In this document: positions 10,183 to 27,540 of the stretch, one piece after another | Layout of the letters: each line of letters opens with the position of its first letter | How positions within the stretch are numbered: position 1 is the stretch's first letter | Made by a program: the position numbers and the translations under genes | Notes under the pieces: model-generated | Database searches by the model: none | What the model was told of the DNA's origin: nothing | The model's input: the letters and a program-made list of their open reading frames with translations, nothing else | NCBI RefSeq assembly: GCF_030406905.1 | Contig: NZ_CP129137.1 | Span: forward strand, 3,802,001-3,866,000 | Source of the DNA: Streptomyces sp. HUAS CB01 | Lineage (GTDB): Bacteria; Actinomycetota; Actinomycetes; Streptomycetales; Streptomycetaceae | DNA: 64,000 nt | Direction: 5' to 3'

Positions 10183-10340
10183 GCATACGAGGTTATCGGG
10201 GCGCACCGACAATCACGGAGGCCGGCGGGGGACCGGACGTCCGGGAAGCCCCGCGGGCTCCGGACGAGGACGAGGCTGCGGCCGGGATCCCGCAGCCGGC
10301 CGCGACGGGCGACCGCGGCGACCGACGCCGAACGCAAAGG

Positions 10341-10432
10341 GCCCCCCACGCACCCGCCAGAGCCGACCTACCCTTGCTGCCTTCCGGCCCTGGGGGAGTT
10401 CAGTCAGATAGCGCCACGTGAGGGGCTGCGCA
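10341..10432 (-). ncRNA. ffs: Small signal recognition particle RNA (4.5S-like)
   Basis: On the minus strand the hallmark SRP apical loop CAGGGCCGGAAGGCAGCAAG is present (complement of about 10372-10391), flanked by the asymmetric internal loop. The terminal helix forms between the GCCCCTCACGTG arm at the 5' side and the complementary TGCGTGGGGGGC arm at the 3' side. The location just upstream of dnaX is usual for Streptomyces. Ends are estimated from helix pairing, plus or minus a few bases. Confidence 0.92.
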
Positions 10433-10925: not shown

Positions 10926-11131
10926 GCTCCCGGTCGTGGGAGTCGGCGCACGGGCTCAGCGGCACGCCCGGCAGCACGAGTCGGGAGGCGGACACCTCCC
11001 ATCGACCGTCCAGGCGCCGCGTCCTGACGGCTGCGCACCACGCGGCGCGCCTCAACACCCCCTCGGTGATACTGCTTTACGGGGCAGGCGCAACGGCCCG
11101 CCCCAGCAGGACACCACGGGGGAAGCACCAC

Positions 11132-12391
11132 ATGAGCACCGCCGGACCAGGCTCCGTTCCCACACCGAGGAGGACGCTCCGCGACACGTCCCGACGCACC
11201 GCCCTCACCGTCGACGTACTTCTCACTGCGGCGGCGGCACTGGAAGTACTCACCTGGTACGGGCACCACGACATGGCATCCGCCCTGGTGTGCCCACCCG
11301 CGCTGCTCGCCCTCCTGGTGCGGCGCAGGTTCCCCGTGCCGGTGCTCCTGGCCACCCTCCCGTCCATGGCCACGGGCGACCTGTGGCTCGCCCCCATGAT
11401 CGCCCTGTTCACGGTGGCGTCCGGAAGTGCCGGCCGCGCCGCCGTGATCGGTTCCACCGCGGCGGTGTTCGGGGCGGCGCTGTGGTCCGGCTACGCCGTC
11501 GACACCGGTTCCCTCGGCTGGGGCGACCACCTCTTCGCCGTCGAGGTGGCCCTCATGTTCAGTGTCGGCCCCGCCGGCCTGGGCCTCCTGGCCCGCACCC
11601 GCTCCCGGCTCCGGTCCCGCCTCGCCGACCTCACGGCCTCGCAGTCGCACGGCCGCCGGCTGGAAGCCGAACGGGCCGTCGCCCAGGAGCGCGCCCGTAT
11701 GGCGCGGGAGATGCACGACACGGTCTCGTACCACCTCGGCATCATCGCCGCCCAGTCCGGAGCCCTGTGGGCGACGGCGACCGACGAGGTGATCCGTGAG
11801 GACGCCGACACGATCCGCCGCCACAGTGCCGACGCGATGGCGGAACTCCGCACCATCGTCGGGGTGCTGCGCCGCTCCTCCGGACGGACCGACGACGACT
11901 CCCCGGGCCTGGAGCGTCTGCGGACCCTGGTCCACGAGGCGCGTCTGGACGCCGGGCTCGATCTCGTCCTTCCCCCGGCGCCCTGCTCACCGGCCGTGGA
12001 GCGCGCCGCCTACCGGACCGTCCAGGAAGCACTCACCAACGTCCGCAAGCACGCCCCCGGCGCACCGGTCACCGTCACCGTGCGCCCCACCCCCCGGGGC
12101 GACGCCCTGCTCGTCGAGATCCGCAACGGCCCCGTGCCCGACGCGGTGCGGCCCGTCGTGCCCGACACGACCACGGGCGGATACGGCCTCACCGGCCTCA
12201 AGGAACGCACTGCCCTGGTCAACGGCACGTTCAGAGCGGGCGGCACCCCGGAGGGCGGCTTCGTCGTACGCTCCGAGATCCCCTTGGTCCCGGCACCGGC
12301 GAGGGGTACGACTCCTCAGCGCGCCTCCGCCCCGGGGGCTTCCGACGCGCGCTCGTACACCGACACGTGCCGCAGGCTGGACGCGGTGTAG
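11132..12391 (+). CDS. NarL-type sensor histidine kinase of the lanthipeptide locus
   Basis: A 419-residue membrane kinase. About five hydrophobic segments fill residues 30-150, typical of DesK-like sensors with no large extracellular domain. They are followed by a HisKA_3 dimerisation helix with the phosphoacceptor in [16 protein letters not shown] and a HATPase_c domain ([30 protein letters not shown]). The ATG start follows GGGGGA by seven bases. Its likely partner is the LuxR regulator at 13150-13833 on the opposite strand, with a methyltransferase between them. The last 76 bases overlap the convergent methyltransferase gene, so the C-terminal tail after VVRSEIPL is probably an extension into the neighbour. 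Confidence 0.88.
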
Positions 12392-13077
12392 GGGTTCCCC
12401 GCCCAGTCCTCCGTGCGCTCCACGAGGCGCAGCCCCGACAGTTCGGCAAGCAGGTCGATCTCGAAAGGGAAGGCATAGCGCAGCACGTGCTCGCGGGTCT
12501 CCGGTGCGCCGCCGTCGATGATGGTGTGCGTCGACACCATCAGTTGAAGGGACCGGTCGACGGTCAGCGTGTCCAGCATGACGGCCCGCTCGTCGAGGTG
12601 CCGTACGGAGAAGTCGGGCTTCTCCATGGTGTGGTACGGCGCCGGATCGAAGGCCTCCAGCACGAACCGCCCCCCGGGTGAGAGCTGCCGGCGGACGAGC
12701 TCCAGGCAGCCGAGCTGCTGCTCCTTGGTGATCGCCACGAAGAACGTGTTCAGTATCAGGGTCACCGTGTCGAAGGTGCGGCCCGTGCCCTCCGCGGTGA
12801 AGTCGCCGAACTGCGTGGTCACCGCGCCCTGCGGGTCCCGCCTGGCGAGTTCGGCGAGCATCGCCTCGGACCCGTCGACGCCGTGCACCGCGAAGCCGCG
12901 CTCCGCCAGGGGGACGGCGATCCTGCCGGTGCCCACCCCGAGTTCGAGGACGCTCCCGCCCGGTGGGGTCAGCGCGGCCACGAATTCGACGGCCTGGTCC
13001 GTGTCGTGGCCGATCGGGTACATGCGGTCGTACACGCTGGCCAGCTTCTGGTCGTACAGGGCGTTTCCGAGGGCCAT
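12316..13077 (-). CDS. Class I SAM-dependent methyltransferase
   Basis: 253 residues with a Rossmann methyltransferase fold. Motif I is VLELGVGTGRIAVPL, followed by the acidic residue in VHGVDGSEAM (motif II) and FDTVTLILNTFF with LSPGGRFVLEAFDP as later strands. The N-terminus NALYDQKLASVYDRMYP is typical of small-molecule methyltransferases. It lies between the histidine kinase and the response regulator at the edge of the lanthipeptide operon. It could tailor the peptide or have an unrelated role; its substrate is unknown. It runs in the direction of the response-regulator gene, 72 bases downstream of it. Confidence 0.88.
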   Translation of the reverse strand: MALGNALYDQKLASVYDRMYPIGHDTDQAVEFVAALTPPGGSVLELGVGTGRIAVPLAERGFAVHGVDGSEAMLAELARRDPQGAVTTQFGDFTAEGTGRTFDTVTLILNTFFVAITKEQQLGCLELVRRQLSPGGRFVLEAFDPAPYHTMEKPDFSVRHLDERAVMLDTLTVDRSLQLMVSTHTIIDGGAPETREHVLRYAFPFEIDLLAELSGLRLVERTEDWAGNPYTASSLRHVSVYERASEAPGAEAR

Positions 13078-13149
13078 GCAGATGTCACTCCAAGCGGGTT
13101 GCCGTCAACGGCGGGGTGGGGGTCGGTTCCTGCGGTCCGGCGGGCGGAC

Positions 13150-13833
13150 TCAGCGGGTGCCGGCGAGCACGGGCCGGCGGTGCCGGCCCTCGGCCGACGC
13201 CGCCCGGTGCGCCAGCACGGCCGCCTGCACACGGTTGGCCAGCCTGAGCTTGGCCAGGATGGCGCTCACGTGCTCCTTGGTCGTGGACGCGCTCATCATC
13301 AGCCTGCGCCCGATGTCGGCGTTGGTGAGTCCTTCCGCCAGCAGATCCAGAACCTGGTGCTCCCGCGCGGTGAGGGTGTCCAGGCGGGGGTCCCGCGCGT
13401 CGTGCCCCGGGCCCCGGTCCAAGTAGCCGTCGACGACGACGCGCGCCGCTGCCGGCGACAGCACCGTCCCTCCCGAGGCCAGCACCCGGACCGCGTGGGC
13501 GAGTTCCTGCGGGGTCGCGTCCTTGAGCAGGAATCCCTTCGCGCCCGTTCGCAGGGCCGCCGCGATGTCCTCGTCGGCCAGGAACGTCGTGAGCACGGCC
13601 ACCGCCGGCGCGGACGTGCGCTCGCCGATCCCGGCCAGGACGGCGAGCCCGTCCACCTCCGGCATGCGCAGATCGAGCAGGACGACATCGGGCCGGTGCA
13701 CGTCGATCGCGGCGAGCGCCCCGCGGCCGTCGCAGGCGACCGGGACTTCGATGTCCGGCTCGCTCTCCAGAATGCGCTGCATACAGGTCCGGAGCAGCAT
13801 TTCGTCGTCGACAATCATCACGCGGATCATCAC
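13150..13833 (-). CDS. LuxR/NarL-family response regulator of the lanthipeptide locus
   Basis: 227 residues. The receiver domain has IRVMIVDDEMLLR, the phosphoacceptor Asp in VVLLDLRMPEVDG, the conserved Thr in VAVLTTF and the Lys in FLLKDA. The LuxR helix-turn-helix occupies about residues 150-210 (LTAREHQVLDLLAEGLTNADIGRRL is split here only for naming: AREHQVLDLLAEGLTNADI, then STTKEHVSAILAKL). ATG at 13833 follows GAGGGGGC. Its probable cognate kinase is at 11132-12391. A perfect 14-bp palindrome lies 33 bases upstream and may be its own operator. It probably controls the lanthipeptide operon starting with the gene at 22096, which is inference from proximity. Confidence 0.93.
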   Translation of the reverse strand: MMIRVMIVDDEMLLRTCMQRILESEPDIEVPVACDGRGALAAIDVHRPDVVLLDLRMPEVDGLAVLAGIGERTSAPAVAVLTTFLADEDIAAALRTGAKGFLLKDATPQELAHAVRVLASGGTVLSPAAARVVVDGYLDRGPGHDARDPRLDTLTAREHQVLDLLAEGLTNADIGRRLMMSASTTKEHVSAILAKLRLANRVQAAVLAHRAASAEGRHRRPVLAGTR

Positions 13834-13865
13834 GCCCCCTCAGCGCGGCCTCCCCGTTCGGCCGC

Positions 13866-13879
13866 ATCTTGATCAAGAT
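13866..13879. promoter_or_regulatory. 14-bp palindrome upstream of the response regulator
   Basis: ATCTTGATCAAGAT is perfectly self-complementary and sits in an AT-rich patch, 33 bases before the regulator start. It is a candidate operator; which protein binds it is unknown. Confidence 0.45.
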
Positions 13880-13921
13880 AGCAATCGGTGAAGGGACCCG
13901 AACGTCCGGGGTGGCGCCCCG

Positions 13922-13948
13922 AAGGGAATTGGGGAATTCAATTCCCTT
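13922..13948. terminator. Hairpin closing the lanthipeptide operon
   Basis: Perfect 10-bp arms (AAGGGAATTG and CAATTCCCTT) around a 7-base loop, 15 bases past the stop of the last leftward gene of the operon. There is no T-tract, as is common in Streptomyces. It could also act as an operator for the flanking promoter region. Confidence 0.55.
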
Positions 13949-13963
13949 GGCCGGCGGGGAATT

Positions 13964-14356
13964 TCAGGCTTCGGTGTCGATCGTCTCCCTGATCAGTGCC
14001 ACCATCTCGGAGTCCCAGGTGAGCACCAGCAGTTCGACCTTGTCCCCCGTGACAGTGGTGCAGCTCACGGCGGTTCCGCCGCGCCCGCCCCCGGTCGCCG
14101 CTTCCGCCGGGCCGGCCAGCCGGACGCGGTTCACGGCCGGCCCTTCCAGAACCGCGCCCGACCCGCTGAGGGTGATTTTCCCGGGCTGCATCGAAGGGGC
14201 TGACGGACCCGTCCGGTACTTGCACCGAATCGTGACCTGCTCCCCCCGCCTGAATGCGGCGACACGACGCGCGGACCGGGACCGGTCCACTCCCTTGCCG
14301 CCTGTCCAGAGAACCAGATCCATCAGGGAATGCAGCAGGAATTCCAGCAACAGCAT
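13964..14356 (-). CDS. Small membrane-anchored hypothetical protein of the lanthipeptide operon
   Basis: 130 residues, family not recognised. The first 18 residues (MLLLEFLLHSLMDLVLW) are hydrophobic and may be an uncleaved anchor. The rest is a basic, beta-rich soluble domain with RRGEQVTIRCKYRTG, GKITLSGSGAVLEGP and a C-terminal DKVELLVLTWDSEMV. The shape recalls the DUF2550-like actinobacterial proteins (one N-terminal helix, then a basic beta domain), but I cannot confirm that. It starts 72 bases after the LLM-type oxidoreductase stop on the same strand and is the last gene before the hairpin at 13922-13948. It may therefore be an accessory or immunity factor; that is inference from position only. 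Confidence 0.6.
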   Translation of the reverse strand: MLLLEFLLHSLMDLVLWTGGKGVDRSRSARRVAAFRRGEQVTIRCKYRTGPSAPSMQPGKITLSGSGAVLEGPAVNRVRLAGPAEAATGGGRGGTAVSCTTVTGDKVELLVLTWDSEMVALIRETIDTEA

Positions 14357-14428
14357 GCGATCGCTCGCTCCTCGGCTCGGACGACTCGTCGATGACGAGC
14401 CTCGTGTGTGTACGCGGACGCGGGGTCG

Positions 14429-15457
14429 TCATCGGACGCGGGCCGTCCGGTCCCGCATCGCCTCCGCGATGGCCCGTACGTCGGCCAGTGCCGCCTCGGG
14501 ACCCTCGGTCAACAGGACCCCGGCACAGCTCAGCGCGATCTCCGTCGCCCCCGCCTCACCGTAGCCGGTGAGGTGTTCCGCCACTTCCTCAGGTGTGCCG
14601 TGGACGAAGACCCCGGCGTCGACCAGAGCGCCCGCTCCCGCCCAGGGGTCCGACACGTCCGCGTCGACTCCGCTCGAGCGCAGCATGGCCGCGTAGTGCT
14701 CGCCGCCCAGGTGGAGTTCGTGCGCGGCGAAGGCCAGCTTCCTGGGGTCCCGTCCGGGCCTGCGCACCGCGCAGGGAACGATCGCGGTCACCGTCGGCGC
14801 GGCCCGTCCGCGTGAGGCGGCCCCCCGGGCGAGGGCGGGCACGATCTGCTCCCTCAGGTACCCCGCCGGCGTCAGCAGGGTGATCGCCACGTCGGCCACC
14901 TGCCCCGCCGTGTAGGCCATGCGCGGCCGCAGCACGCCGACGCCGAGGGAGACCGGTGGGTGCGGCACCTGGAGCAGACCGTCGTCGATGCGTACGTACC
15001 GTCCCTGGAAGTCCTCGACCACCTCGCCGTCGAGCAGTCGCCGCATCACGGTCAGGTACTCGGCGACGGCCGTGCGCGGGCTTTCGTAGGGCCGTCCGCG
15101 CACCGACGCCACGAATGCGGGGTCGCCGGTGCTGAATCCGGCCACGCACGGTTCCCCGGTCAGCAGCGCCAGTGATCTCGCCTGCACGGCGGCGTCCAGG
15201 GGATGCCGCAGCGCGGTGAGGGCGACGCTGGTACCCGCGGGCACCCGGATGCCCCGCCCGGCCAGGTGGGCGAACGCCTGGTGCGTGTCGACGACGAGCG
15301 ACTGCCCCATGTAGAGCCGGTGGAGGGCGTGTTCCCGCACCGCCTCGGCGAACGCGGCGACCTGGTCGAGGTCGTGGGCCATGAGCGGATACATGAGGGA
15401 GAGACGTGGCGGCCTACCGGCCATGGAGTCCTCCGTGTGCGTCGCGGTGGTGGTCAT
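14429..15457 (-). CDS. LLM-class flavin/F420-dependent oxidoreductase, candidate lanthipeptide reductase
   Basis: 342 residues with the luciferase-like (bacterial luciferase/F420 reductase) TIM-barrel pattern: LSLMYPLMAHDLDQVAAFA, HRLYMGQS, IRVPAGTSVALTALRHPLDA, CVAGFSTGD, the insertion block RPYESPRTAVAEYL, and ADVAITLLTPAGYL. The gene overlaps the exporter gene by ATGA, so it is translated as part of the operon. A second in-frame ATG at 15421 has a better Shine-Dalgarno (GGAGG) and may be the true start. In other lanthipeptide clusters, LLM-family F420 enzymes (LanJC type, e.g. in lexapeptide) reduce dehydro-residues to D-amino acids. I infer the same role here. It is not a LanD cysteine decarboxylase, which has a different fold. 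Confidence 0.85.
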   Translation of the reverse strand: MTTTATHTEDSMAGRPPRLSLMYPLMAHDLDQVAAFAEAVREHALHRLYMGQSLVVDTHQAFAHLAGRGIRVPAGTSVALTALRHPLDAAVQARSLALLTGEPCVAGFSTGDPAFVASVRGRPYESPRTAVAEYLTVMRRLLDGEVVEDFQGRYVRIDDGLLQVPHPPVSLGVGVLRPRMAYTAGQVADVAITLLTPAGYLREQIVPALARGAASRGRAAPTVTAIVPCAVRRPGRDPRKLAFAAHELHLGGEHYAAMLRSSGVDADVSDPWAGAGALVDAGVFVHGTPEEVAEHLTGYGEAGATEIALSCAGVLLTEGPEAALADVRAIAEAMRDRTARVR

Positions 15458-17352
15458 GGACGGACCTCGGCGTGGTCGTGGCCGCGGTCGGCGGCGTCGG
15501 TCAGATAGGCGTCGGCCTGGAGCCGGAACAGACGGGCGTAGGTCCCGTCGAGGGCCAGCAGTTCGGCATGGGTGCCTTCCTCGATGAGCGCGCCCCCCTG
15601 CATCACGAGGATCTTGTCCGCGAGACGGACCGTGGAGAACCGGTGGGAGACGATCAATGACGTGGCCCGTGCGCAGATGGTGCGCAGCCGGCCGAAGAGA
15701 TCGGCCTCCGCCTCCGGGTCGATCGCCGCGGTCGGCTCGTCGAGGACCGCGACCGGCGCGTCCCTCAGGAAGGCTCGTGCCAGGGCGATCTTCTGCCACT
15801 GGCCGCCGGACAGCTGGTGTCCGCCCTCGAAGTGCCGGCCCAGCACGGTGTCGTACGTGTCGCCGAGCCCCTCGACGAACTCGGCCGCGCCGCCGGCCTC
15901 GGCGGCCGCACGGATGCGCGCCGTGTCGTCGAGGAGTTCGAGCCGGCCGAAGCCGATGTTGTGGCGTACGGGCAGCTCGTACCGGATGAAGTCCTGGAAG
16001 ACGACTCCGATGTTCCGCTGCAGGTCGGTCGTGTCGTACTCCTCGATGGGCACACCGTCGACGAGGATGCGGCCGCTCGTGGGCTCGTACAGCCGGGTCA
16101 GCAGTTTGACGATGGTGCTCTTGCCCGCCCCGTTGGCGCCGACGAGGGCGCAGCAGGTGCCGGCCGGGAGGAAGCACGTGAAGCCGTCCAGAGCGGGTTC
16201 CGTGCTGCCGGGGTAGCGGAAGGTCACGTCCTGGAACTCGATGCCGTGGGTGAGGCGGCGCGGGAACGGGCGGGTGCCGCTCGCGATCCGGCCCTCGGGC
16301 AGTGACAGGTAGTCGAAGAGGTTCCCCGTGAAGAGCGTGTTCTGGTAGAGCGTCGCCACGCCCAGCAGCAGCCCCGTGGCCGCCGCGTGGACGGCGCCCA
16401 GGGCCTGGAGGTACCCCGCGAGCTCACCGAGGCGACCGGTCTCCACGGTCGACGTGAGGGCGAAGACCAGCGCGCCCGCCGAACAGGCGACGCTGACCAG
16501 CCCCAGTACCGCCGACCAGCCGTGCCGCCTGCGGGCCAGCGCGCGGTCGACGCGGAAGAACTCGCGCACCAGCGCCCCGTAGCGTTCCACGAAGTAGGGG
16601 CCGAGCTGGTAGAGCTTCACCTCCTTGTAGGAGGAGTCCGTCGTCGTCAGGTCCTGGTAGTAGAACGCACGCCGGCGGTCCTGCGCGCGGTGGTACTCGA
16701 CCGCGTAGCCCTCCTTGCTGAACACGATGTGCGCGGCGAGCGCGGGCAGCGGGGCCAGCAGGATGGCGAGCGCGATCCAGGCGTTCCACGAGAACAGCAC
16801 CGAACTGACCATGACGAGCGAGGCCAGCGAGGTGAGCGTGCGCAGCATCTCCTCGAAGACCTCGAACGCCGTGCCCCCGCCGCTCTCCCGCAGCGCCCGC
16901 TGCAGGCGGTCGTACGCCTCGGCGTCCTCGTAGGAACTGAGGTCCATGCGAGTCCCCTTGACCATGACCCGCTCGCCGATCTTCGCGGAGAACTCCAGTT
17001 GCAGCAGGGTGTTCAGGTACTGGGAGAAGGACGACAGGACGTGCTCGCCCAACGCCACCGCGACGAGTCCCGCGGCGGCACGGGCGAGCCGGTCCATGGC
17101 CCCCGGGACGTCCGCGAACGCGTCGGCGACGGCCTGTACGGCATCCGCGGTGAGCCAGATCCCGGCTGCCGGCACCGCGGCGGTCGACAGCGTGAGCAGC
17201 GCCAGCGCGGAGACCCGGGCGGGACTCAGTCCCCAGAAACTCCGCAGGACCAGCCACCAGTAGCGCAGGTCCCGGGAGAGTCTGCGGTGCTCGTCGGACG
17301 CGGTGCCGTCGGGTGCCGAGACGGCCGTGCCCCCGGTGTGCTCAGTGGTCAC
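15454..17352 (-). CDS. ABC exporter (fused permease and ATPase), lanthipeptide transporter
   Basis: 632 residues: a six-helix transmembrane domain (about residues 30-330) followed by a nucleotide-binding domain with Walker A GANGAGKST, Q-loop VFQDFIRY, signature LSGGQWQKIALARAF, Walker B VAVLDEPTAAIDPEAE and H-loop SHRFST. There is no N-terminal C39 peptidase domain, so it exports but does not cut the leader. The start lies inside the last codons of lanB (11-base overlap) and the stop overlaps the oxidoreductase start, so the operon is tightly coupled. Homodimeric export of the modified peptide is the expected role; no separate immunity transporter is present. Confidence 0.92.
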   Translation of the reverse strand: MTTEHTGGTAVSAPDGTASDEHRRLSRDLRYWWLVLRSFWGLSPARVSALALLTLSTAAVPAAGIWLTADAVQAVADAFADVPGAMDRLARAAAGLVAVALGEHVLSSFSQYLNTLLQLEFSAKIGERVMVKGTRMDLSSYEDAEAYDRLQRALRESGGGTAFEVFEEMLRTLTSLASLVMVSSVLFSWNAWIALAILLAPLPALAAHIVFSKEGYAVEYHRAQDRRRAFYYQDLTTTDSSYKEVKLYQLGPYFVERYGALVREFFRVDRALARRRHGWSAVLGLVSVACSAGALVFALTSTVETGRLGELAGYLQALGAVHAAATGLLLGVATLYQNTLFTGNLFDYLSLPEGRIASGTRPFPRRLTHGIEFQDVTFRYPGSTEPALDGFTCFLPAGTCCALVGANGAGKSTIVKLLTRLYEPTSGRILVDGVPIEEYDTTDLQRNIGVVFQDFIRYELPVRHNIGFGRLELLDDTARIRAAAEAGGAAEFVEGLGDTYDTVLGRHFEGGHQLSGGQWQKIALARAFLRDAPVAVLDEPTAAIDPEAEADLFGRLRTICARATSLIVSHRFSTVRLADKILVMQGGALIEEGTHAELLALDGTYARLFRLQADAYLTDAADRGHDHAEVRP

Positions 17353-20300
17353 CGGGCCTCCCCCGCAGACAGTTCAGCACGTGCCCCCAGAGCAGGTAGC
17401 ACCGGTTCTCGGCCGGCCGGTCCATGGGCAGCAGCCGGTTCACCTGCATGTGCGCGAGGCTCGCCAGGATGGCGTCGCGCGTGCCCCACAGGGTCCCGGC
17501 CTCCTCGGCCGCGGCTACCGCCGTCGCCGCGCGGCGCACCGCCTCGGCCTGCCCGTCGAGGGCATCCGCCAGCTTCTCGTGGTGGGCGCGGCCGAGCGGG
17601 TGCGGGCGACGGTCCCAGGGCTGGAGCAACTCGCACAGATAGTCGCGGTCCTTCCGGTACCGCTCGCGGGACTCCTTGTCCTCCGGCGGACGCGGCATGG
17701 CCGCCAGTCTCTGGTGGACGTCGAGCCCCCACTGCGTGTACAGCGCGTTCACGGCGGCGAGGGTGACGGCCTCGGGGTCCAGTCCGGGCTCCCTGTCCCA
17801 GAGGAGGCGCAGCAGCCGGCAGGAGACGGCGGAGTTCGCGGCGAAGAGGGCCTCGACGGAGTCGTACACGTCCGGGCCTCCGTAGCGGCTGATCTCCGGT
17901 CGGTACGTGGCGACTTCGAGGCGCTCGGCGGTTCCGTTCCGTACGAGTTCCCCGCCCCAGTCGAGCAGGAGCGGCAGCAGCCGGCCGTCGGCGCGGGCGG
18001 TGCGCACCCTGATGCGCAGGTGGGGGTCCGGGTCGGCGTAGCGGATGTAGAACCAACGGCCGATGTCGAGACCTGCGTCCCGTGTCCGCTCGAGCAGGGC
18101 GGGCAGCTCGACGGCCGCGATCTCGTCGTGGAGGTCCCTGGCCGCGTACAGCTTGAGGTACGACCAGTCGGATCCCGGCAGATGGCTCCGGTGCGCGGCC
18201 GGGTCCGTGCCGAGGGCCCTCCGTGCCTCGGAGGGGCGGGGCCGCCCGTCCGGCCGCGGCACGGCGTCGGGCACGGCGATGAGCGGGACGACGACCTCCG
18301 ACAGGTAGCCGCGGCCCGCGCGGTCCCGCAGCCACAACCGGTCGGGCCCGGGCAGGGCTTCCTGGAGGGTGACGCGTCCGTCGGCGGTGCGCAGTTCGGC
18401 GAGGAGTTCCTCGACGCACACGGGGTGGTCGAGGTCGAGGAGCAGCCGGTTGTCGTCGTCCGCCAGGTACACGTGGCGGGGCACGCCCCAGGTGCTGCGC
18501 CAGCGGCTCAGCTCGGCCGCGGAGCGCGGAAAGTGCGCTGCCCCGGCGGTGGCGGAGCCTCGCGCCCCCACCGGGTGGAGGTTCCATTCGGCGGCGCGCA
18601 CGACGACCCGGCCGCGTACGACGCGCGGGAGGTGCGGGGCGCCCTCGACGGGGCCCCAGGTGAAACCGGTGGGCACGGTGTACCGGGCGCGGGAGACCTC
18701 CAGCAGGAAACGGCAGACGTTGGGGGCGCCGAGCGGGCTGAGCATGTGGTTCTGGACGACGACCACCTCGCGCCCCAGGCGCGCCGAGTAGAGGCGGAAG
18801 CCGTCGTCGTCGGCGCCCACGTGGATGTCGGCCAGGCCGAGGACCCGGTCGGGAGCGACCGACGGGGCCACGTTCACGGGGATCTCGTACGCGTGGACGG
18901 CGGGCCGGATCGCCACGTTGGCGCCGCGGCCGTTGGGTGGCAGGTACGCCAGCTCGGCGACGACGACCTCCGGTTCCAGGGCCTCCCGGGCCCGGGCGTA
19001 GGCCCGGAGGTGTTCGCCGGCGGCCGGGCCGAGCAGAGGGAAGAACCGCCCGAAGGTGCGGCCTCCCTCGCCGAGACCGTCGGTGTTGAGGACGGCGGTC
19101 CAGTCCCCCCGGTCGATGCCGTCGGTGCTGTCCGCGGCGATCTGCACGTACGCGTCCACGCCGGGGCAGAGCGGACCGGCGGCGGCGCGCTCCGGGGGCA
19201 GCAGGCGTTCCAGCACGTCGTCGGTCAGCTTCACCTCTTCGGCACCGCGCCGCCACGCGTCGGCCGCGAGGGCGACCAACTCCCGTGCCGTGTGGGGCTC
19301 GCCCTCGTCCGCCGACTGGGTCATGGCCATGGCACGCGGCGGGTTCACATAGCCGTTGGGCGCGTCGAGGCCGTGCTCGGCGCCGAGGAGTTCGAGGACG
19401 GGGACGACGGCGTCGGTGCCGTACCGCTCCATGAACGCCTGGTGGTACGCGGCGAGATGGTCGTATCCCCCGGGCTGGGCCCGGCCGAGACGGGCCAGGC
19501 AGCCGACCGTGTCGGCGATCTCGTCGGCGACCCGGCGGTCGAGGGACCCGGCGTCGAGGCCGAGGGCGGAATCGACCTGGAACGGCTGGCCCTTGTGGTC
19601 GGGGACGAGGGCGCGCTGCACGGAGCGCAGCCGTCGGAGGGTGGTGGTGTGGCCGTGCGCGGTCCGGCCGGTCAGCTCGACGACCTCCCGCAGCGCGGCC
19701 GCGGAGGAAACGCCCGCCCCCGTGGCGTCGAGGCGGTCCAGGACGTACCGCTCGGGGTGGGGGTCGGTGACGGGAGGCCGGAGATCGGTGACGAGCAGAC
19801 CGAGGCCGACCAGTTCGGTGAGGAACGCGGTGATCCGTTCGCGCCCCGTCCCGGGAAAGCCCTCCGTCAGCTCGTCGGCCAGGGCCGCGAACGGAACGGG
19901 GGCGGCGGGCGGCGCGAGTCGCAGGACGTGCGCGAGGGGTTCGGTGTGGCGTACGCGTACCGAGCGGCGGTCGGAGGCGTCGCCGTGCACACCGGACGCG
20001 GGCAGGACGACCCGGTCGCCCACCTGCCGGGCCAGGGCATTGACGGAAACGCCGAGACGGGTCAGGACTCCCGGGTCCTCCTCCAGCCGCCGTACGAGGG
20101 CGAGCAGCCAGCCCATGTCGGCCCGTACACGGGCGGAGGCGAGCGCGGTGTCGCCGAGCGCCGCGGTGGTGCTGTCGCCGAAGGTGCCGAAGCCGACTCC
20201 GGAGAAGGCCCCGAAGGGGGTCGGCCGGGTGCTCATCCGCGTGAGGTAACGGAGCGTACGCGAGTGCACGCGCCGGTCCTCCTTGCCTCCCGCCCGTCCC

Positions 20301-20587
20301 TGGCGCGTCCGGGCCAGACCGTCGAGCAGTCCGCTCCCGGCCGCGACGAGCGCATGCTGCACCTGTGGGTCGTCGGCCAGGGACCGCAGCCGGTCGCGGG
20401 TGAGGTTCTCGTCGCTGTCGCCGCCACGGGTGCCGTCGCCGCCCACGGCGAGCGCGTCCCGCCAGACGTCGACGGGGAGGGCCGGCGCACGCAGCAGGTG
20501 GAAGTCGAGGGCTCGGTACAGCGGCGTGCGGCGGGTCGGGTCCTTGTGGGTCACGTTCTCGGTCTCGGTCCTGTCGTCACTGGTCAC
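17342..20587 (-). CDS. lanB: Class I lanthipeptide dehydratase LanB (full length)
   Basis: About 1,081 residues, carrying both the glutamylation and the elimination domains in one chain. It uses glutamyl-tRNA to dehydrate Ser/Thr of the precursor. The N-terminal domain shows TPLYRALDFHLLRAP and RTLRYLTRMSTRPTPFGAFSG, the hallmark of the glutamylation lobe. The C-terminal SpaB_C elimination domain has WSYLKLYAARDLHDEI and RWFYIRYADPDPHLRIRVR with the conserved His. The start is uncertain. I chose GTG at 20587, three bases after the lanC stop region, consistent with translational coupling. TTG at 20617 and GTG at 20554 are alternatives. Confidence 0.94.
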   Translation of the reverse strand: MTSDDRTETENVTHKDPTRRTPLYRALDFHLLRAPALPVDVWRDALAVGGDGTRGGDSDENLTRDRLRSLADDPQVQHALVAAGSGLLDGLARTRQGRAGGKEDRRVHSRTLRYLTRMSTRPTPFGAFSGVGFGTFGDSTTAALGDTALASARVRADMGWLLALVRRLEEDPGVLTRLGVSVNALARQVGDRVVLPASGVHGDASDRRSVRVRHTEPLAHVLRLAPPAAPVPFAALADELTEGFPGTGRERITAFLTELVGLGLLVTDLRPPVTDPHPERYVLDRLDATGAGVSSAAALREVVELTGRTAHGHTTTLRRLRSVQRALVPDHKGQPFQVDSALGLDAGSLDRRVADEIADTVGCLARLGRAQPGGYDHLAAYHQAFMERYGTDAVVPVLELLGAEHGLDAPNGYVNPPRAMAMTQSADEGEPHTARELVALAADAWRRGAEEVKLTDDVLERLLPPERAAAGPLCPGVDAYVQIAADSTDGIDRGDWTAVLNTDGLGEGGRTFGRFFPLLGPAAGEHLRAYARAREALEPEVVVAELAYLPPNGRGANVAIRPAVHAYEIPVNVAPSVAPDRVLGLADIHVGADDDGFRLYSARLGREVVVVQNHMLSPLGAPNVCRFLLEVSRARYTVPTGFTWGPVEGAPHLPRVVRGRVVVRAAEWNLHPVGARGSATAGAAHFPRSAAELSRWRSTWGVPRHVYLADDDNRLLLDLDHPVCVEELLAELRTADGRVTLQEALPGPDRLWLRDRAGRGYLSEVVVPLIAVPDAVPRPDGRPRPSEARRALGTDPAAHRSHLPGSDWSYLKLYAARDLHDEIAAVELPALLERTRDAGLDIGRWFYIRYADPDPHLRIRVRTARADGRLLPLLLDWGGELVRNGTAERLEVATYRPEISRYGGPDVYDSVEALFAANSAVSCRLLRLLWDREPGLDPEAVTLAAVNALYTQWGLDVHQRLAAMPRPPEDKESRERYRKDRDYLCELLQPWDRRPHPLGRAHHEKLADALDGQAEAVRRAATAVAAAEEAGTLWGTRDAILASLAHMQVNRLLPMDRPAENRCYLLWGHVLNCLRGRPGDH

Positions 20588-20589
20588 GG

Positions 20590-21831
20590 TCAACGGGGGA
20601 GGAGCACCTTCCACCAACTGGGGCGGTGGCCCGTGGCGAGGGCGCTGAGGGTGAGGGCCACGCCTGCCGCGCCGGTGAGGAGCCCGGGGTTGTCGACGAC
20701 GTGCCCGGTGGTCTCGTGGTCGCGGTAGACCAGAGGGAGGTCCGGGTCGGCAGCGTCGACCAGTCGCCGCGCCAGACCGGGGAGGGCGCGGGCGGCTCCG
20801 TCACTCCCCTTCGCCGCGAACTCCTGGGCGAGGGCGGCGATTCCGGCCAGCCCGTGACAGACGGTGGGCGAGCGCGGCACGTCGCCGCCGGCCACCCGGT
20901 CGAGCAGTCCGTCCAGCGCCGCGAACGCCTCGGTCTCCAGGGCCCGGTCGTCCAGCGCCTCGGCCACGGCCAGCAGTCCTGCGGCGACGCCCCCGGTGCC
21001 GTGGCACCAGGCCGGCCCGGCTTCGCCGGGCTCCGCCGCCGGTACGGACCGGGGCCACCTGAGCCTGCACCCACCGCCGTCACCGACCGCCAGCAGCCAC
21101 TCGGTCACCTCGTCGAGCGCGGCCCGCTGCCCGGGCACCCGGTGCCCTCGCCGCCACGCGGCGGCCAAGGCCGCCGCGATCCCGGCCGCACCGTGGGACA
21201 TGCCGGTGTCGAGACGTCCCTCCACGGCCCAGCGCCCGTCGGTCGCGACCCACACCAGGTACCGCAGGCTCTTCTCCAGAGCCCGCTCGACCAGCGGGGT
21301 CGTGGGGCGTACGGAGCACAGGTGGGCCACGACCCCGGCGCTGCCGTAGAGGAGGTCGTAGTGGTGATCGGCCACGGCGCCGGGACGACGCGGCCGGGGG
21401 GTGGCGAGCACCTGACGACCGAGTTGCTCGTGCAGTCCACCCAGGCTGCCGAGAAAGCGCGGTTCCTCCAGCGAAATGTCCTGGAGCACGAACGCGATCC
21501 CGGCGGTTCCCTCGAAGAGCCCGGGATGCGCGAGGGGCTTCTGCCGGGTGGCGGAAAAGGCCGCGCGCACAAAGGAAAAGCTCCGCTGGAGGGCGCGGTC
21601 CCGCTCTTCTCCGACGGCTGCACCACGGGCGGCGTGCACATGCAGGAGGGCGAGCCCCGCGTGCCCCTCGCTGAGAGAGGCGCCGTGCCAGAAGGGCGTG
21701 TCGGTCTGTTCGGCGGCACGAGCTGCGGCCGCGGCGGCCCGCTCGGGGGTGTCCAGACGTTCTCGGATCAATGCGGCCACCGCTCCGGCGCGGGCGGCCA
21801 CATCGGGCGGGAGGAAAGGGGCGACGGTCAT
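20590..21831 (-). CDS. lanC: Lanthipeptide cyclase LanC
   Basis: 413 residues with the alpha/alpha-barrel LanC pattern. Repeated Gly-containing turns occur at GHAGLALL, FEGTAGIAFVL, DLLYGSAGVVAHL (with the conserved Asp just before), MSHGAAGIAAAL, WCHGTGGVAAGL and VCHGLAGIAAL. The Cys of WCHG and the Cys-His of CHGL are the three zinc ligands, and the His in MSHG is the expected general acid/base. It catalyses addition of Cys thiols to dehydrated residues to form (methyl)lanthionine. ATG at 21831 is 82 bases after the precursor stop; a strong hairpin lies in that gap. Confidence 0.95.
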   Translation of the reverse strand: MTVAPFLPPDVAARAGAVAALIRERLDTPERAAAAAARAAEQTDTPFWHGASLSEGHAGLALLHVHAARGAAVGEERDRALQRSFSFVRAAFSATRQKPLAHPGLFEGTAGIAFVLQDISLEEPRFLGSLGGLHEQLGRQVLATPRPRRPGAVADHHYDLLYGSAGVVAHLCSVRPTTPLVERALEKSLRYLVWVATDGRWAVEGRLDTGMSHGAAGIAAALAAAWRRGHRVPGQRAALDEVTEWLLAVGDGGGCRLRWPRSVPAAEPGEAGPAWCHGTGGVAAGLLAVAEALDDRALETEAFAALDGLLDRVAGGDVPRSPTVCHGLAGIAALAQEFAAKGSDGAARALPGLARRLVDAADPDLPLVYRDHETTGHVVDNPGLLTGAAGVALTLSALATGHRPSWWKVLLPR

Positions 21832-21856
21832 GTACTTTTCCGCGGGAACTCAGGGC

Positions 21857-21886
21857 TGGGCCCTCCGACCTGCGCCGGAGGGCCCA
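21857..21886 (-). terminator. Intercistronic hairpin (attenuator) between precursor gene and lanC
   Basis: GGGCCCTCCG pairs perfectly with CGGAGGGCCC over a short loop, extended by one more pair. Placed between the precursor stop and the lanC start, it could partly stop transcription or stabilise the short upstream mRNA, giving more precursor than enzymes. Confidence 0.6.
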
Positions 21887-21913
21887 TGACTCAGACTCGA
21901 GCCGGAAGCGCTG

Positions 21914-22096
21914 TCAGCACTTGCCGTTCGTGCGCACCGCGGCGCAAGCGGCCGTCAGCTTGATCGTCTGCCGGATGGTCTGCTTCACGACCGCCTTGCT
22001 GACGACGCGCGAAGCGATGCTGGCGACCGGCGAGAGCGACGTCTCGGCCGGGTCGGCGGAGACGGTCACACGGGCGTCGAGGTTGAACTCGTCCAT
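21914..22096 (-). CDS. lanA: Class I lanthipeptide precursor peptide
   Basis: A 60-residue peptide. Residues 4-7 (FNLD) are the leader box recognised by LanB, as in nisin-type leaders. The leader ends plausibly at ASIASR (25-30), like the ASPR end of nisin. The predicted 30-residue core (31-60) begins VVSKAVVK and is strongly cationic. Thr occurs at 40, 44, 48 and 56, Ser at 33, and Cys at only 51 and 60. Likely rings are Thr48-Cys51 (TAAC) and Thr56-Cys60 (TNGKC, at the very C-terminus). Ser33, Thr40 and Thr44 have no Cys partner. ATG at 22096 follows GAAAGGTG. Too small to be noticed without the lanC/lanB genes directly downstream. Confidence 0.88.
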   Translation of the reverse strand: MDEFNLDARVTVSADPAETSLSPVASIASRVVSKAVVKQTIRQTIKLTAACAAVRTNGKC

Positions 22097-22269
22097 GGAA
22101 AAACTGCACCTTTCATTCCGGAGGGACGCCGCTCCGCGAAAAACCGGATGGAATTCCAGCGGCGACCCGGGAATGAAATTACCGATGGGCGGTACACGAG
22201 TGAACCCACCGATCTTCCTTTTCCTCCCCACCGTTCGTCGGGTGCGGGCACCCGACTTTCGGGGTGGGT

Positions 22270-22854
22270 TCACCGCCCTTGCAACGCATCGAGCGCGACG
22301 GCCATGCACAGGGCCAGAACCCGGTCGAGTTCCGGATCCTGGACGCGGATCACGTAGCGGTCGCGTATTCCCCACTTCCGTTCCACGGAAAGGACGGGCC
22401 GGCCGTCCCGCACGAAGTCGAAGTGGTAGAGGAACGGCACCGGCGGCACGGGGACGACCGGCACGAAGGCGTCGACCAGATCCCACGCCCGGCGCGCCAC
22501 CGCGACACCGAGCCGTCTCTCCCTCCCGACGGCGGCGGCCCGGTCCGCCTGGGTCAGATGCCACGTCGAGCGCACCAGCGAAGCCTTGAAGTCCTTGCGG
22601 AAGGAGCCGATCGGCTCGCCGTCCGGGCCGGTGACGTCGTAGGTGGCACCGAGGTCGAGGGCCTCCCTCGCCGTGAACCGGCCGATCACCCGGGCCCGGT
22701 CGTCCCCCGTCCAGAGCGTCAGGTCCTCCTTCAGGGCGAATCTCTTCTGCTCGCCGAACGCGACGACGTCCCCCCCGTCCGCAGCCGCGATCACATAGCG
22801 GTTGACCAGGGGAGTGACCTTCTGCGTCATCAGGAATTCGCTGAGTTGCTCCAT
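22270..22854 (-). CDS. LURP-one-related / tubby-like beta-barrel protein
   Basis: 194 residues. The sequence LMTQKVTPLVNRYVI, FALKEDLTLWTGDDRARVIGRF, YDVTGPDGEPIGSFRKDFKASL and VERKWGIRDRYVIRVQDPELD fits the LURP-one-related (DUF567, tubby/scramblase-like) 12-stranded barrel with a C-terminal hydrophobic helix (RVLALCMAVALDAL). Members are cytosolic or membrane-associated; their role in bacteria is not settled. It starts 143 bases after DUF899 on the same strand and ends 174 bases before the lanthipeptide precursor, so it is probably independent of that operon. Confidence 0.72.
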   Translation of the reverse strand: MEQLSEFLMTQKVTPLVNRYVIAAADGGDVVAFGEQKRFALKEDLTLWTGDDRARVIGRFTAREALDLGATYDVTGPDGEPIGSFRKDFKASLVRSTWHLTQADRAAAVGRERRLGVAVARRAWDLVDAFVPVVPVPPVPFLYHFDFVRDGRPVLSVERKWGIRDRYVIRVQDPELDRVLALCMAVALDALQGR

Positions 22855-22997: not shown

Positions 22998-23711
22998 TCA
23001 GCCGACCCCGCGGGGCTCGGAGGGCCCCTCCGTTGCCGGTTCGGCGTCGTCGCCGTACGCGTCGTGCCAGTTCCACCAGGCGTACGGCGGCGTCTGGGGA
23101 TAGCCCTCGGGCGAGCTCTCCCACGTCTCCTGCCGTCCGAGAGCGGTCATGTCGAGGTAGCTCCAGGTGCTCCCCAGCGCCTCGTCCCCGCGGTTGTTGA
23201 CGAAGTAGGTGCGGAACACCCGGTCGCCGTCACGGATGAACGCGTTCGTCCCGTGCCACTCGTCCACCCCGAAGTCGGCGTCGAAGTCGCCGGTGATCGT
23301 GTACCAGGGGATCGTCCAGCCCATCCGTGCCTTCACCCGCTCGACGTCCGGCTGCGGCGCACGCGAGACGAAGACGAGAGTGGTGTCGCGGGCGTTCAGA
23401 TGGGCGAGGTGACCGACGTGGTCGGCCACCATGGAGCAGCCGCGGCAGGCGTGGTCGGGCCAGCCGGACACACCGGGCTCGAAGAACGCGCGGTAGACGA
23501 TCAGCTGCCGACGGCCCTCGAAGAGGTCGAGCAGGCCCGCCTTGCCCTCGGGGCCCTCGAACTCGTACGCCTTCTCCACCGCCAGCCACGGCATCCGCCG
23601 ACGCCTGGCGGCCAGTTCGTCACGAGCGCGGGTCAGCCTCTTCTCCTCGACGAGCAGTTCCTGCCGCGCGGACTCCCACTCCTGCGGCGAGACGACCGGG
23701 GGTGTCTCCAT
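22998..23711 (-). CDS. DUF899 family thioredoxin-fold protein
   Basis: 237 residues of the DUF899 family, predicted thioredoxin-like and thought to be redox-active. Seen: the N-terminal coiled helix SPQEWESARQELLVEEKRL, YEFEGPEGKAGLLDLFEGRR, the CRGCSM site in WPDHACRGCSMVADHVGHL, LVFVSRAPQPDVER, and the late FRTYFVNNRGDEALGSTWSYLDMT. The CxxC-like CRGC is the presumed active site. I chose the ATG at 23711, where family members begin; GTG at 23723 is possible. Ends with an acidic tail. Substrate unknown. Confidence 0.88.
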   Translation of the reverse strand: METPPVVSPQEWESARQELLVEEKRLTRARDELAARRRRMPWLAVEKAYEFEGPEGKAGLLDLFEGRRQLIVYRAFFEPGVSGWPDHACRGCSMVADHVGHLAHLNARDTTLVFVSRAPQPDVERVKARMGWTIPWYTITGDFDADFGVDEWHGTNAFIRDGDRVFRTYFVNNRGDEALGSTWSYLDMTALGRQETWESSPEGYPQTPPYAWWNWHDAYGDDAEPATEGPSEPRGVG

Positions 23712-23754
23712 GGTGACGTTCACCTTCCCCTTCGGGTCCGGACTCGTTCCGGCA

Positions 23755-26784: not shown

Positions 26785-27540
26785 ATGAGGAAGCACCGCA
26801 GGAAGACGCACTACCGGAAGATAACGATCGCCGCGGTCGCCCTGGGCGCCGTGGCTGTGCCTTCCGTAGCCATGGCCTGTATGGACCAGCAGGAGAGCCC
26901 GCAACGCCAGGCGAGCCGTGACGGACGGTCCTGGGCGGACTGGAAGAACGCCTCGGCCGAGAATCCGTGGCAGCGGGGCGGCTGGGACTGGAAGAAGAAG
27001 CACGGCGACGCCGAGCAGCCCGGCGCGGAGCCGGGTGCCGCCGAGCCCGGCGGTGCCGACCCGGCACCGCAGGCCCCCGCCCCCGCCAAGCCCGCGGCGC
27101 CCAAGCCGGCGGCCCCCAAGCCCTCGGCCTCGCCGAGCACGCCCGCCTCCTCCGCTCCCGCCTCCGGCGCCGTGGCGCGTGTCGTGCAGCTCGTCAACAG
27201 CGAGCGCAGCAAGGCCGGTTGCTCCCCGGTGACCGTCAACGCCAAGCTGACCAAGGCCGCCCAGGACCACAGCACGGACATGGCGTCCCACCGCAACATG
27301 TCCCACACGGGCTCCGACGGCTCGAACCCCGGCACCCGGATCACCCGCGCCGGATACGACTGGAGCACGTACGGCGAGAACGTCGCCTACGGCTACGAGA
27401 CCCCCGAGAAGGTCATGGCGGGCTGGATGTCCAGCCCCGGCCACAAGAAGAACATCCTGAACTGCGAGTTCAAGGAGATCGGCGTCGGCCTCGCACAGCC
27501 CGGGAACTACTGGACCCAGGACTTCGGCACCGCCCGCTGA
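26785..27540 (+). CDS. Secreted CAP-domain (SCP/PR1-like) protein
   Basis: 251 residues. A basic N-terminus and hydrophobic core (ITIAAVALGAVAVPSVAMA) form a Sec signal peptide ending around AMA-C. A Trp-rich stretch (SWADWKNASAENPWQRGGW) and a long Ala/Pro/Lys linker (repeated KPAAPKP) follow. The CAP domain occupies about residues 125-251: VVQLVNSERSKAGCSPV, AAQDHSTDMASHRNMSHTG with its conserved His, YGENVAYGYETPEKVM, GWMSSPGHKKNILN and YWTQDFG. Such proteins are extracellular and their activity in Streptomyces is poorly known. ATG at 26785 follows GAGG by seven bases. A strong terminator follows. Confidence 0.92.
   Translation: MRKHRRKTHYRKITIAAVALGAVAVPSVAMACMDQQESPQRQASRDGRSWADWKNASAENPWQRGGWDWKKKHGDAEQPGAEPGAAEPGGADPAPQAPAPAKPAAPKPAAPKPSASPSTPASSAPASGAVARVVQLVNSERSKAGCSPVTVNAKLTKAAQDHSTDMASHRNMSHTGSDGSNPGTRITRAGYDWSTYGENVAYGYETPEKVMAGWMSSPGHKKNILNCEFKEIGVGLAQPGNYWTQDFGTAR

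Follow-up and report, generated by a model that had tools for sequence, protein, structure and literature searches.

Class I lanthipeptides are the products of LanB and LanC, for which dehydration and cyclisation, respectively, are established, and the class V cases of D-amino acids came after 2020. The reductase type LanJC was named from birimositide, a class II lanthipeptide; in the part of that source available to us, D-amino acids had, as of 2020, been observed only in class II and were considered possible in classes I, III and IV, where reductase genes gave a hint of them (PMC7268733). According to the accessible part of PMC8068269, LxmJ converts dehydroalanine to D-Ala, the dehydrobutyrine of an S28T mutant was not reduced, and both D-Ala and N,N-dimethylated N-termini are known in lexapeptide and cacaoidin. 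LanJC is also treated in the consulted part of PMC10373908, and LanKC/LanJC pairs in daptide clusters are mentioned in that of PMC10036551. Here, we analyzed a 64,000-nucleotide stretch of Streptomyces sp. HUAS CB01 (contig NZ_CP129137.1, positions 3,802,001 to 3,866,000; the window) from a genome of 8.1 Mb, and describe a block of ten genes that is likely to make a class I lanthipeptide with lexapeptide-like finishing. The cluster is real, conserved, and probably working, and earlier genome mining had already anticipated its type in outline.

The first-pass annotation of the window had described six co-directional genes with class I machinery, and both points were borne out by gene calls and Pfam matches. 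On the minus strand, the precursor gene lanA is followed by lanC, lanB, an ATP-binding cassette (ABC) exporter gene, a luciferase-like monooxygenase (LLM) gene, and the gene of a 130-amino-acid (aa) protein. LanB is full-length, with glutamylation and elimination domains (Lant_dehydr_N, 531.8 bits; Lant_dehydr_C, 160.2 bits), and its longest reading carries RMSTRPT at residue 127, presumably a catalytic motif. LanC is a stand-alone protein that matched LANC_like and aligned to the cyclase 8byk; it contains Trp275-Cys276-His277-Gly (WCHG) and Cys325-His326-Gly (CHG), whose Cys and Cys-His residues we take to be zinc ligands. The genes had also been said to overlap from lanC to the LLM gene. This holds for lanB and the exporter gene (11 nucleotides, nt) and for the exporter and LLM genes, whose 4-nt ATGA overlap places the latter in the operon as claimed; the lanC/lanB junction is either an overlap or a 2-nt gap because lanB may begin at any of three codons (TTG 20617, TTG 20593, or GTG 20587). 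Domain library scans showed no C39 peptidase domain in the exporter and, across the ten proteins of the block, neither a protease nor a LanFEG domain, in agreement with the earlier reading. Leader removal would fall to a host protease; the part of PMC8960859 that we consulted reports a protease outside the cluster for paenilan, also a class I peptide. A second, weaker LanB N-terminal match was also seen in the same genome, outside the window (G000:C1:7390135-7392345, plus strand, 67.7 bits, with two flanking pieces).

The extent of the cluster was then defined by its relatives. Scanning the genome collection yielded 181 relatives; locus counts refer to the best 80, which were retained. Five of them (L003, L004, L005, L006, and L016; group 1) contain the whole set in the same order, as judged by tblastn with the window proteins. 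Window genes called at 0-36 kb and encoding at least 55 aa were searched against these five loci. All ten genes of a block at 11066-22854 were present in 5/5 relatives with 48-93% identity, whereas the genes immediately outside on either side were found in none of the five, so the block has sharp ends. Two outlying matches were obtained: a regulator at 271-888 (29-34% in 5/5, at the position of the block's own regulator) and a gene at 26785-27540 (30% over 120 residues, in L016). The borders proposed at first, 13964 to 22096, were therefore too tight; a response regulator, a CypM-like methyltransferase, a histidine kinase, and a 194-aa protein gene belong to the block as well, the methyltransferase and the two-component system among them having been left beyond those borders. 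Because the surroundings differ between genomes, horizontal movement of the block is suggested.

Table 1. Features of the conserved block (coordinates are positions in the window)
Feature	Position	Strand	Description
Sensor histidine kinase	11066..12391	+	Convergent with the methyltransferase gene, overlapping; in conserved block
Methyltransferase	12316..13077	-	S-adenosylmethionine (SAM) methyltransferase, CypM/YunM relative; outside the borders first proposed
Response regulator	13150..13833	-	NarL/LuxR-type, profile matches; in conserved block
130-aa protein	13964..14356	-	No family; predicted long N-terminal helix and PH-like barrel
lanJC	14429..15457	-	Putative LLM-class F420-type dehydroalanine reductase, LxmJ relative; Bac_luciferase 96.6 bits
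ABC exporter	15454..17352	-	Membrane and ATPase parts; ABC_tran 106.9 bits
lanB	17342..20617 (start ambiguous)	-	Full-length glutamyl-tRNA-type dehydratase, both domains
lanC	20590..21831	-	Cyclase, 413 aa; LANC_like 127.9 bits (Pfam)
Hairpin	21838..21912	-	G+C-rich, between lanA and lanC
lanA	21914..22096	-	60-aa precursor, FNLD leader motif, C-terminal end TAACAAVRTNGKC
194-aa protein	22270..22854	-	No family in Pfam or NCBIfam; precedes lanA in 5/5 group-1 relatives

A further nine of the 80 loci (L015, L022, L025, L026, L031, L032, L041, L045, and L061; group 2) have the order LanC-LanB-exporter-LLM with a different precursor. L021, in which the exporter was present only as a 233-residue end and LanB was not seen, is likely a tenth locus of this group, although it was counted as other. 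Grouped by clusters of the genes that we called, the remaining loci comprise 32 of class V type, 16 of daptide type, 11 that carry LanD or M16 genes but lack the class V pair, and 7 others; these gene-cluster names were assigned by reading, and single representatives were scanned afterwards. Those of the class V side showed LxmK (403.8 bits, cut-off 315) together with HopA1, flavoprotein, and M16 matches, those of the daptide side showed an RRE, an aminotransferase, and a dehydrogenase above the cut-offs, and a LanKC representative reached 599.8 bits (cut-off 575). As a side observation, the LLM loci L007, L008, L009, L010, and L012 have short precursors (leader like MNTQSLISGY) and LanD plus M16 cluster genes, four of the five carry a CypM-like cluster methyltransferase, and no class V kinase or HopA1 cluster genes were found in the stretches of their DNA examined. 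These are possibly another type of ribosomally synthesized and post-translationally modified peptide (RiPP) that uses LanJC.

The LanA precursor, MDEFNLDARVTVSADPAETSLSPVASIASRVVSKAVVKQTIRQTIKLTAACAAVRTNGKC, combines an FxLD leader motif with a core of Ser, Thr, and Cys, as expected of class I. It scored 17.3 bits with the FDLD class I lanthipeptide model NF038155, below the cut-off of 20, and none of five relatives (P0003-P0007) exceeded that cut-off, the highest value being 19.6. Homologs were confirmed for 6 of 7 candidates in a search of 5.8 billion proteins; all six are from Streptomyces and are annotated only as hypothetical or uncharacterized. In a genus sample of 392 genomes, the precursor was found in two, counting its own. 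Comparison of the lanA codons with each of five relatives showed 9-16 silent and 4-10 residue-changing differences, so the gene looks coding. Alignment of seven sequences gave 29 invariant columns, including Ser26, Ser29, Thr40, Thr44, Cys51, Thr56, and Cys60, and every Ser, Thr, and Cys at residues 22-60 is kept in the window precursor and eight relatives of 60 aa. The latter check excludes P0007, which is 4 residues shorter, lacks Ser33, and has Ser in place of Thr48, and P0008, in which the start of the leader is missing and Thr replaces Ser22. The core was also compared with those of other loci: 9 of 1000 shuffles scored as high for one group-2 core and 581 of 1000 for the other, and for three class V-type or LanD/M16-type tails the corresponding numbers were 447-624. 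Since one of the two group-2 cores resembles the window core and these tails do not, the window core could belong with the FDLD family as a Cys-poor relative and not be of class V, even though the methyltransferase points to a lexapeptide-type source.

Next, we examined the LLM protein. It is 50% identical to a protein named LxmJ at NCBI, F420 enzymes make up all of its 15 best structural matches, and it lies in a lanthipeptide operon. By these features, the protein belongs to LanJC, a type of F420-dependent dehydroalanine reductase, and is predicted to reduce dehydroalanine to D-Ala with F420H2; no other gene of this kind occurs in the genome. Oxidation or another redox reaction, for example hydroxylation or sulfoxide formation, in place of the reduction of dehydro-residues appears very improbable, since F420 enzymes are the closest matches in sequence and fold for which the cofactor is known, and the near relatives include LxmJ-named proteins. 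The presence of an LLM gene does not in itself make a lanthipeptide cluster new because LanJC is already recognized (LxmJ, birimositide, and as proposed for cacaoidin); nine further LanB loci among the 80 carry one. In each of the 14 LanB loci, the LLM gene comes directly after the exporter gene, with a 4-nt ATGA or GTGA overlap in nine and a gap of about 10 bases in four, whereas L006 shows no overlap, its called LLM start being 138 nt further on. In the LLM tree, group 1 formed a single clade with a support of 100. Group 2 was scattered over several places, such that its class I rows need at least two label changes. Thus, LanB-LanC-exporter sets might have gained LanJC repeatedly, with the reductase here acquired separately from that of the FDLD family, which is compatible with the reading of the cluster preferred here. 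We put this origin forward only tentatively: the deep branches of the tree are weak, the approximately unbiased (AU) test did not reject a single clade uniting every class I row, that of L021 among them (p 0.379), and the gene order is identical in 14/14 LanB loci.

The methyltransferase shows sequence kinship with CypM (E 4.4e-24 over residues 6-243) and YunM (E 4.1e-21), while the solved structure of CcbJ scores higher (E 2.3e-39). It is found in 5/5 group-1 relatives with 81-88% identity and, at E 1e-60 or better, in 9 of the 392 genus-sample genomes. After those of the window genome (G000) and G251, the next enzymes, and the nearest outside the family, are in G104 and G252, both 74% identical. 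On a 3.7-kb piece of G104 (L085), its neighbours are a flavoprotein (PF02441) gene, a 347-aa gene of no family, a gene resembling M16 (PqqF, 52 bits against a cut-off of 320), and the gene of a 62-aa precursor, which scored 49 bits with the LxmA leader model (cut-off 25); the gene layout of G252 is its mirror image. A tree of 47 relatives grouped the window enzyme and those of the five group-1 loci with G104 and G252 (support 100); this clade lies in the half opposite the daptide enzymes, with long branches between the halves. Single-linkage clustering placed this methyltransferase gene cluster at 5/5 group-1, 0/9 group-2, 19/32 class V-type, and 15/16 daptide-type loci. The kinship fits an N-terminal dimethyltransferase.

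From this gene content, the following pathway is proposed. LanB would dehydrate Ser and Thr residues of the LanA core via glutamyl-tRNA, and LanC would close two thioether rings near the C-terminus, because there are two Cys; Thr48-Cys51 and Thr56-Cys60 are the simplest pairs, in which Thr48 and Thr56 would be the nearest upstream partners. LanJC with F420H2 would reduce the spare dehydroalanines from Ser26, Ser29, and Ser33 to D-Ala and perhaps the dehydrobutyrines from Thr40 and Thr44 to D-aminobutyrate. The ABC protein would export the peptide, a host protease not belonging to the cluster would cut the leader, and the CypM-like enzyme would then dimethylate the exposed N-terminus, with the two-component pair controlling the cluster. 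The gene content, family kinship, operon order, and conserved block are observed directly, whereas the chemistry, cofactor, modified positions, order of steps, protease, and control are deduced from them. There is an even chance that this cluster is the founding member of a class I lanthipeptide family whose peptides carry D-alanines from an F420 reductase as well as an N,N-dimethylated N-terminus; the product would be a two-ring, mostly linear, cationic peptide.

Some observations weigh against such finishing. D-aminobutyrate is less likely than D-Ala because the dehydrobutyrine of the LxmJ S28T mutant was not reduced, according to the consulted part of PMC8068269. The LLM protein stayed under the cut-offs of all 18 NCBIfam models listed, and three LxmJ-named proteins that were scanned were likewise under that of the best model, TIGR03564. 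The methyltransferase reached 77.9 with the NCBIfam daptide methyltransferase model (cut-off 175), for which the LxmA-side copy gave 71.5, and its gene starts 72 nt past the regulator gene without translational coupling. Moreover, its best solved-structure match is CcbJ, which we take to be a small-molecule N-methyltransferase of celesticetin synthesis, so a small-molecule role is still conceivable. Together with the lack of a methyltransferase homolog in the DNA examined around the nine group-2 LanB-LLM loci, the missing coupling and the CcbJ match would suit a class I lanthipeptide with a reductase, to which the methyltransferase and two-component system are travelling neighbours that do not act on the peptide. 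We consider this unlikely, given the constant presence of the methyltransferase within the group-1 block, its rarity in the genus, and its same-cluster occurrence at class V-type and daptide-type LLM loci; of the two 74% copies, the one that was read adjoins the LxmA-leader RiPP precursor. A cluster with lexapeptide-like finishing is therefore still preferred.

Other features of the block were also compared. The hairpin in the 82-nt spacing between lanA and lanC is present in 6/6 group-1 sequences. Except in L003 and L016, its region folds better than shuffles (four of the six, z -2.84 to -3.51), and 3 of 11 pairs are changed on both sides among five sequences, L016 being omitted for length; it is possibly an attenuator or mRNA stabiliser. 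The 130-aa protein had been called a small membrane protein. The gene is real, but its product has a single modest hydrophobic stretch, at the N-terminus (Kyte-Doolittle 1.48 over 19 residues), and the predicted PH-like barrel. Like this protein, the precursor and the 194-aa protein were without a match in the Pfam scan. The 194-aa protein is not cluster-specific because homologs occur in 50 of 392 genus-sample genomes at E 1e-25, some of which lack the precursor. An inverted repeat, AAGGGAATTGAATTCCCCAATTCCCTT, lies in 13834-13963 ahead of the response regulator gene, and conservation of this region among relatives is mainly in the part closer to that gene. Directly left and right of the block are a small signal recognition particle (SRP) RNA gene (10334-10430, minus strand) and a DUF899 gene (22998-23723, minus strand).

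The combination of genes had been regarded at first as unmatched to a described compound. In support, four peptide strings were found in none of the open-access papers searched, MIBiG and BAGEL being outside that search, and no class I lanthipeptide combining a LanJC reductase with an N-terminal methyltransferase was found in the open-access literature searched; the LLM enzyme itself, however, is of the recognized LanJC type. The consulted parts of PMC8358304, PMC10676316, PMC12328550, PMC11672506, PMC11855644, and PMC9576775 do not describe a class I peptide with LanJC. The family offers a compact, conserved system for testing D-amino acids in class I and hints at movement of tailoring genes from one lanthipeptide class to another. 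A reductase and methyltransferase that accept what LanB and LanC produce would be useful tools to stabilise peptides.

Compared with known systems, the window LanB resembles the full-length class I dehydratases 5ehk (E 5.9e-86), which we take to be MibB of microbisporicin, and NisB of nisin (4wd9; E 1.3e-36); we know of no LanJC gene in either cluster. The FDLD family (NF038155), to which the group-2 loci correspond, shares the order LanC-LanB-exporter-LLM, with identities of 46-49% for LanB, 54-60% for the exporter, and 47-53% for the LLM protein. Its leaders are F(D/A)LD, and three of four precursors tested were above the NF038155 cut-off. However, those four contain five or six Cys, in contrast to two Cys and a long Cys-free stretch in the window precursor, and tblastn revealed no homolog of the window methyltransferase, small protein, or lanA at these loci. 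In birimositide, a luciferase-like enzyme is likewise proposed for D-Ala, according to the accessible part of PMC7268733, but the system is a two-component one of class II. The RRE protein, dehydrogenase, and aminotransferase of daptide clusters were absent among the ten block proteins, although they were recognized in daptide-type loci. Similarly, the LxmK kinase, HopA1-domain protein, and LanD flavoprotein on which class V relies had no match among the ten block proteins, whereas the same libraries do recognize all three in class V-type loci. The tails of two class V-type precursors aligned to the window core no better than shuffles. Nevertheless, the class V peptides lexapeptide and cacaoidin (LxmJ/Cao12 and LxmM) share with the window a LanJC reductase and a CypM-sort methyltransferase. 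If the proposed pathway is true, class I ring chemistry would here be joined to finishing enzymes otherwise of lexapeptide-type (class V) peptides.
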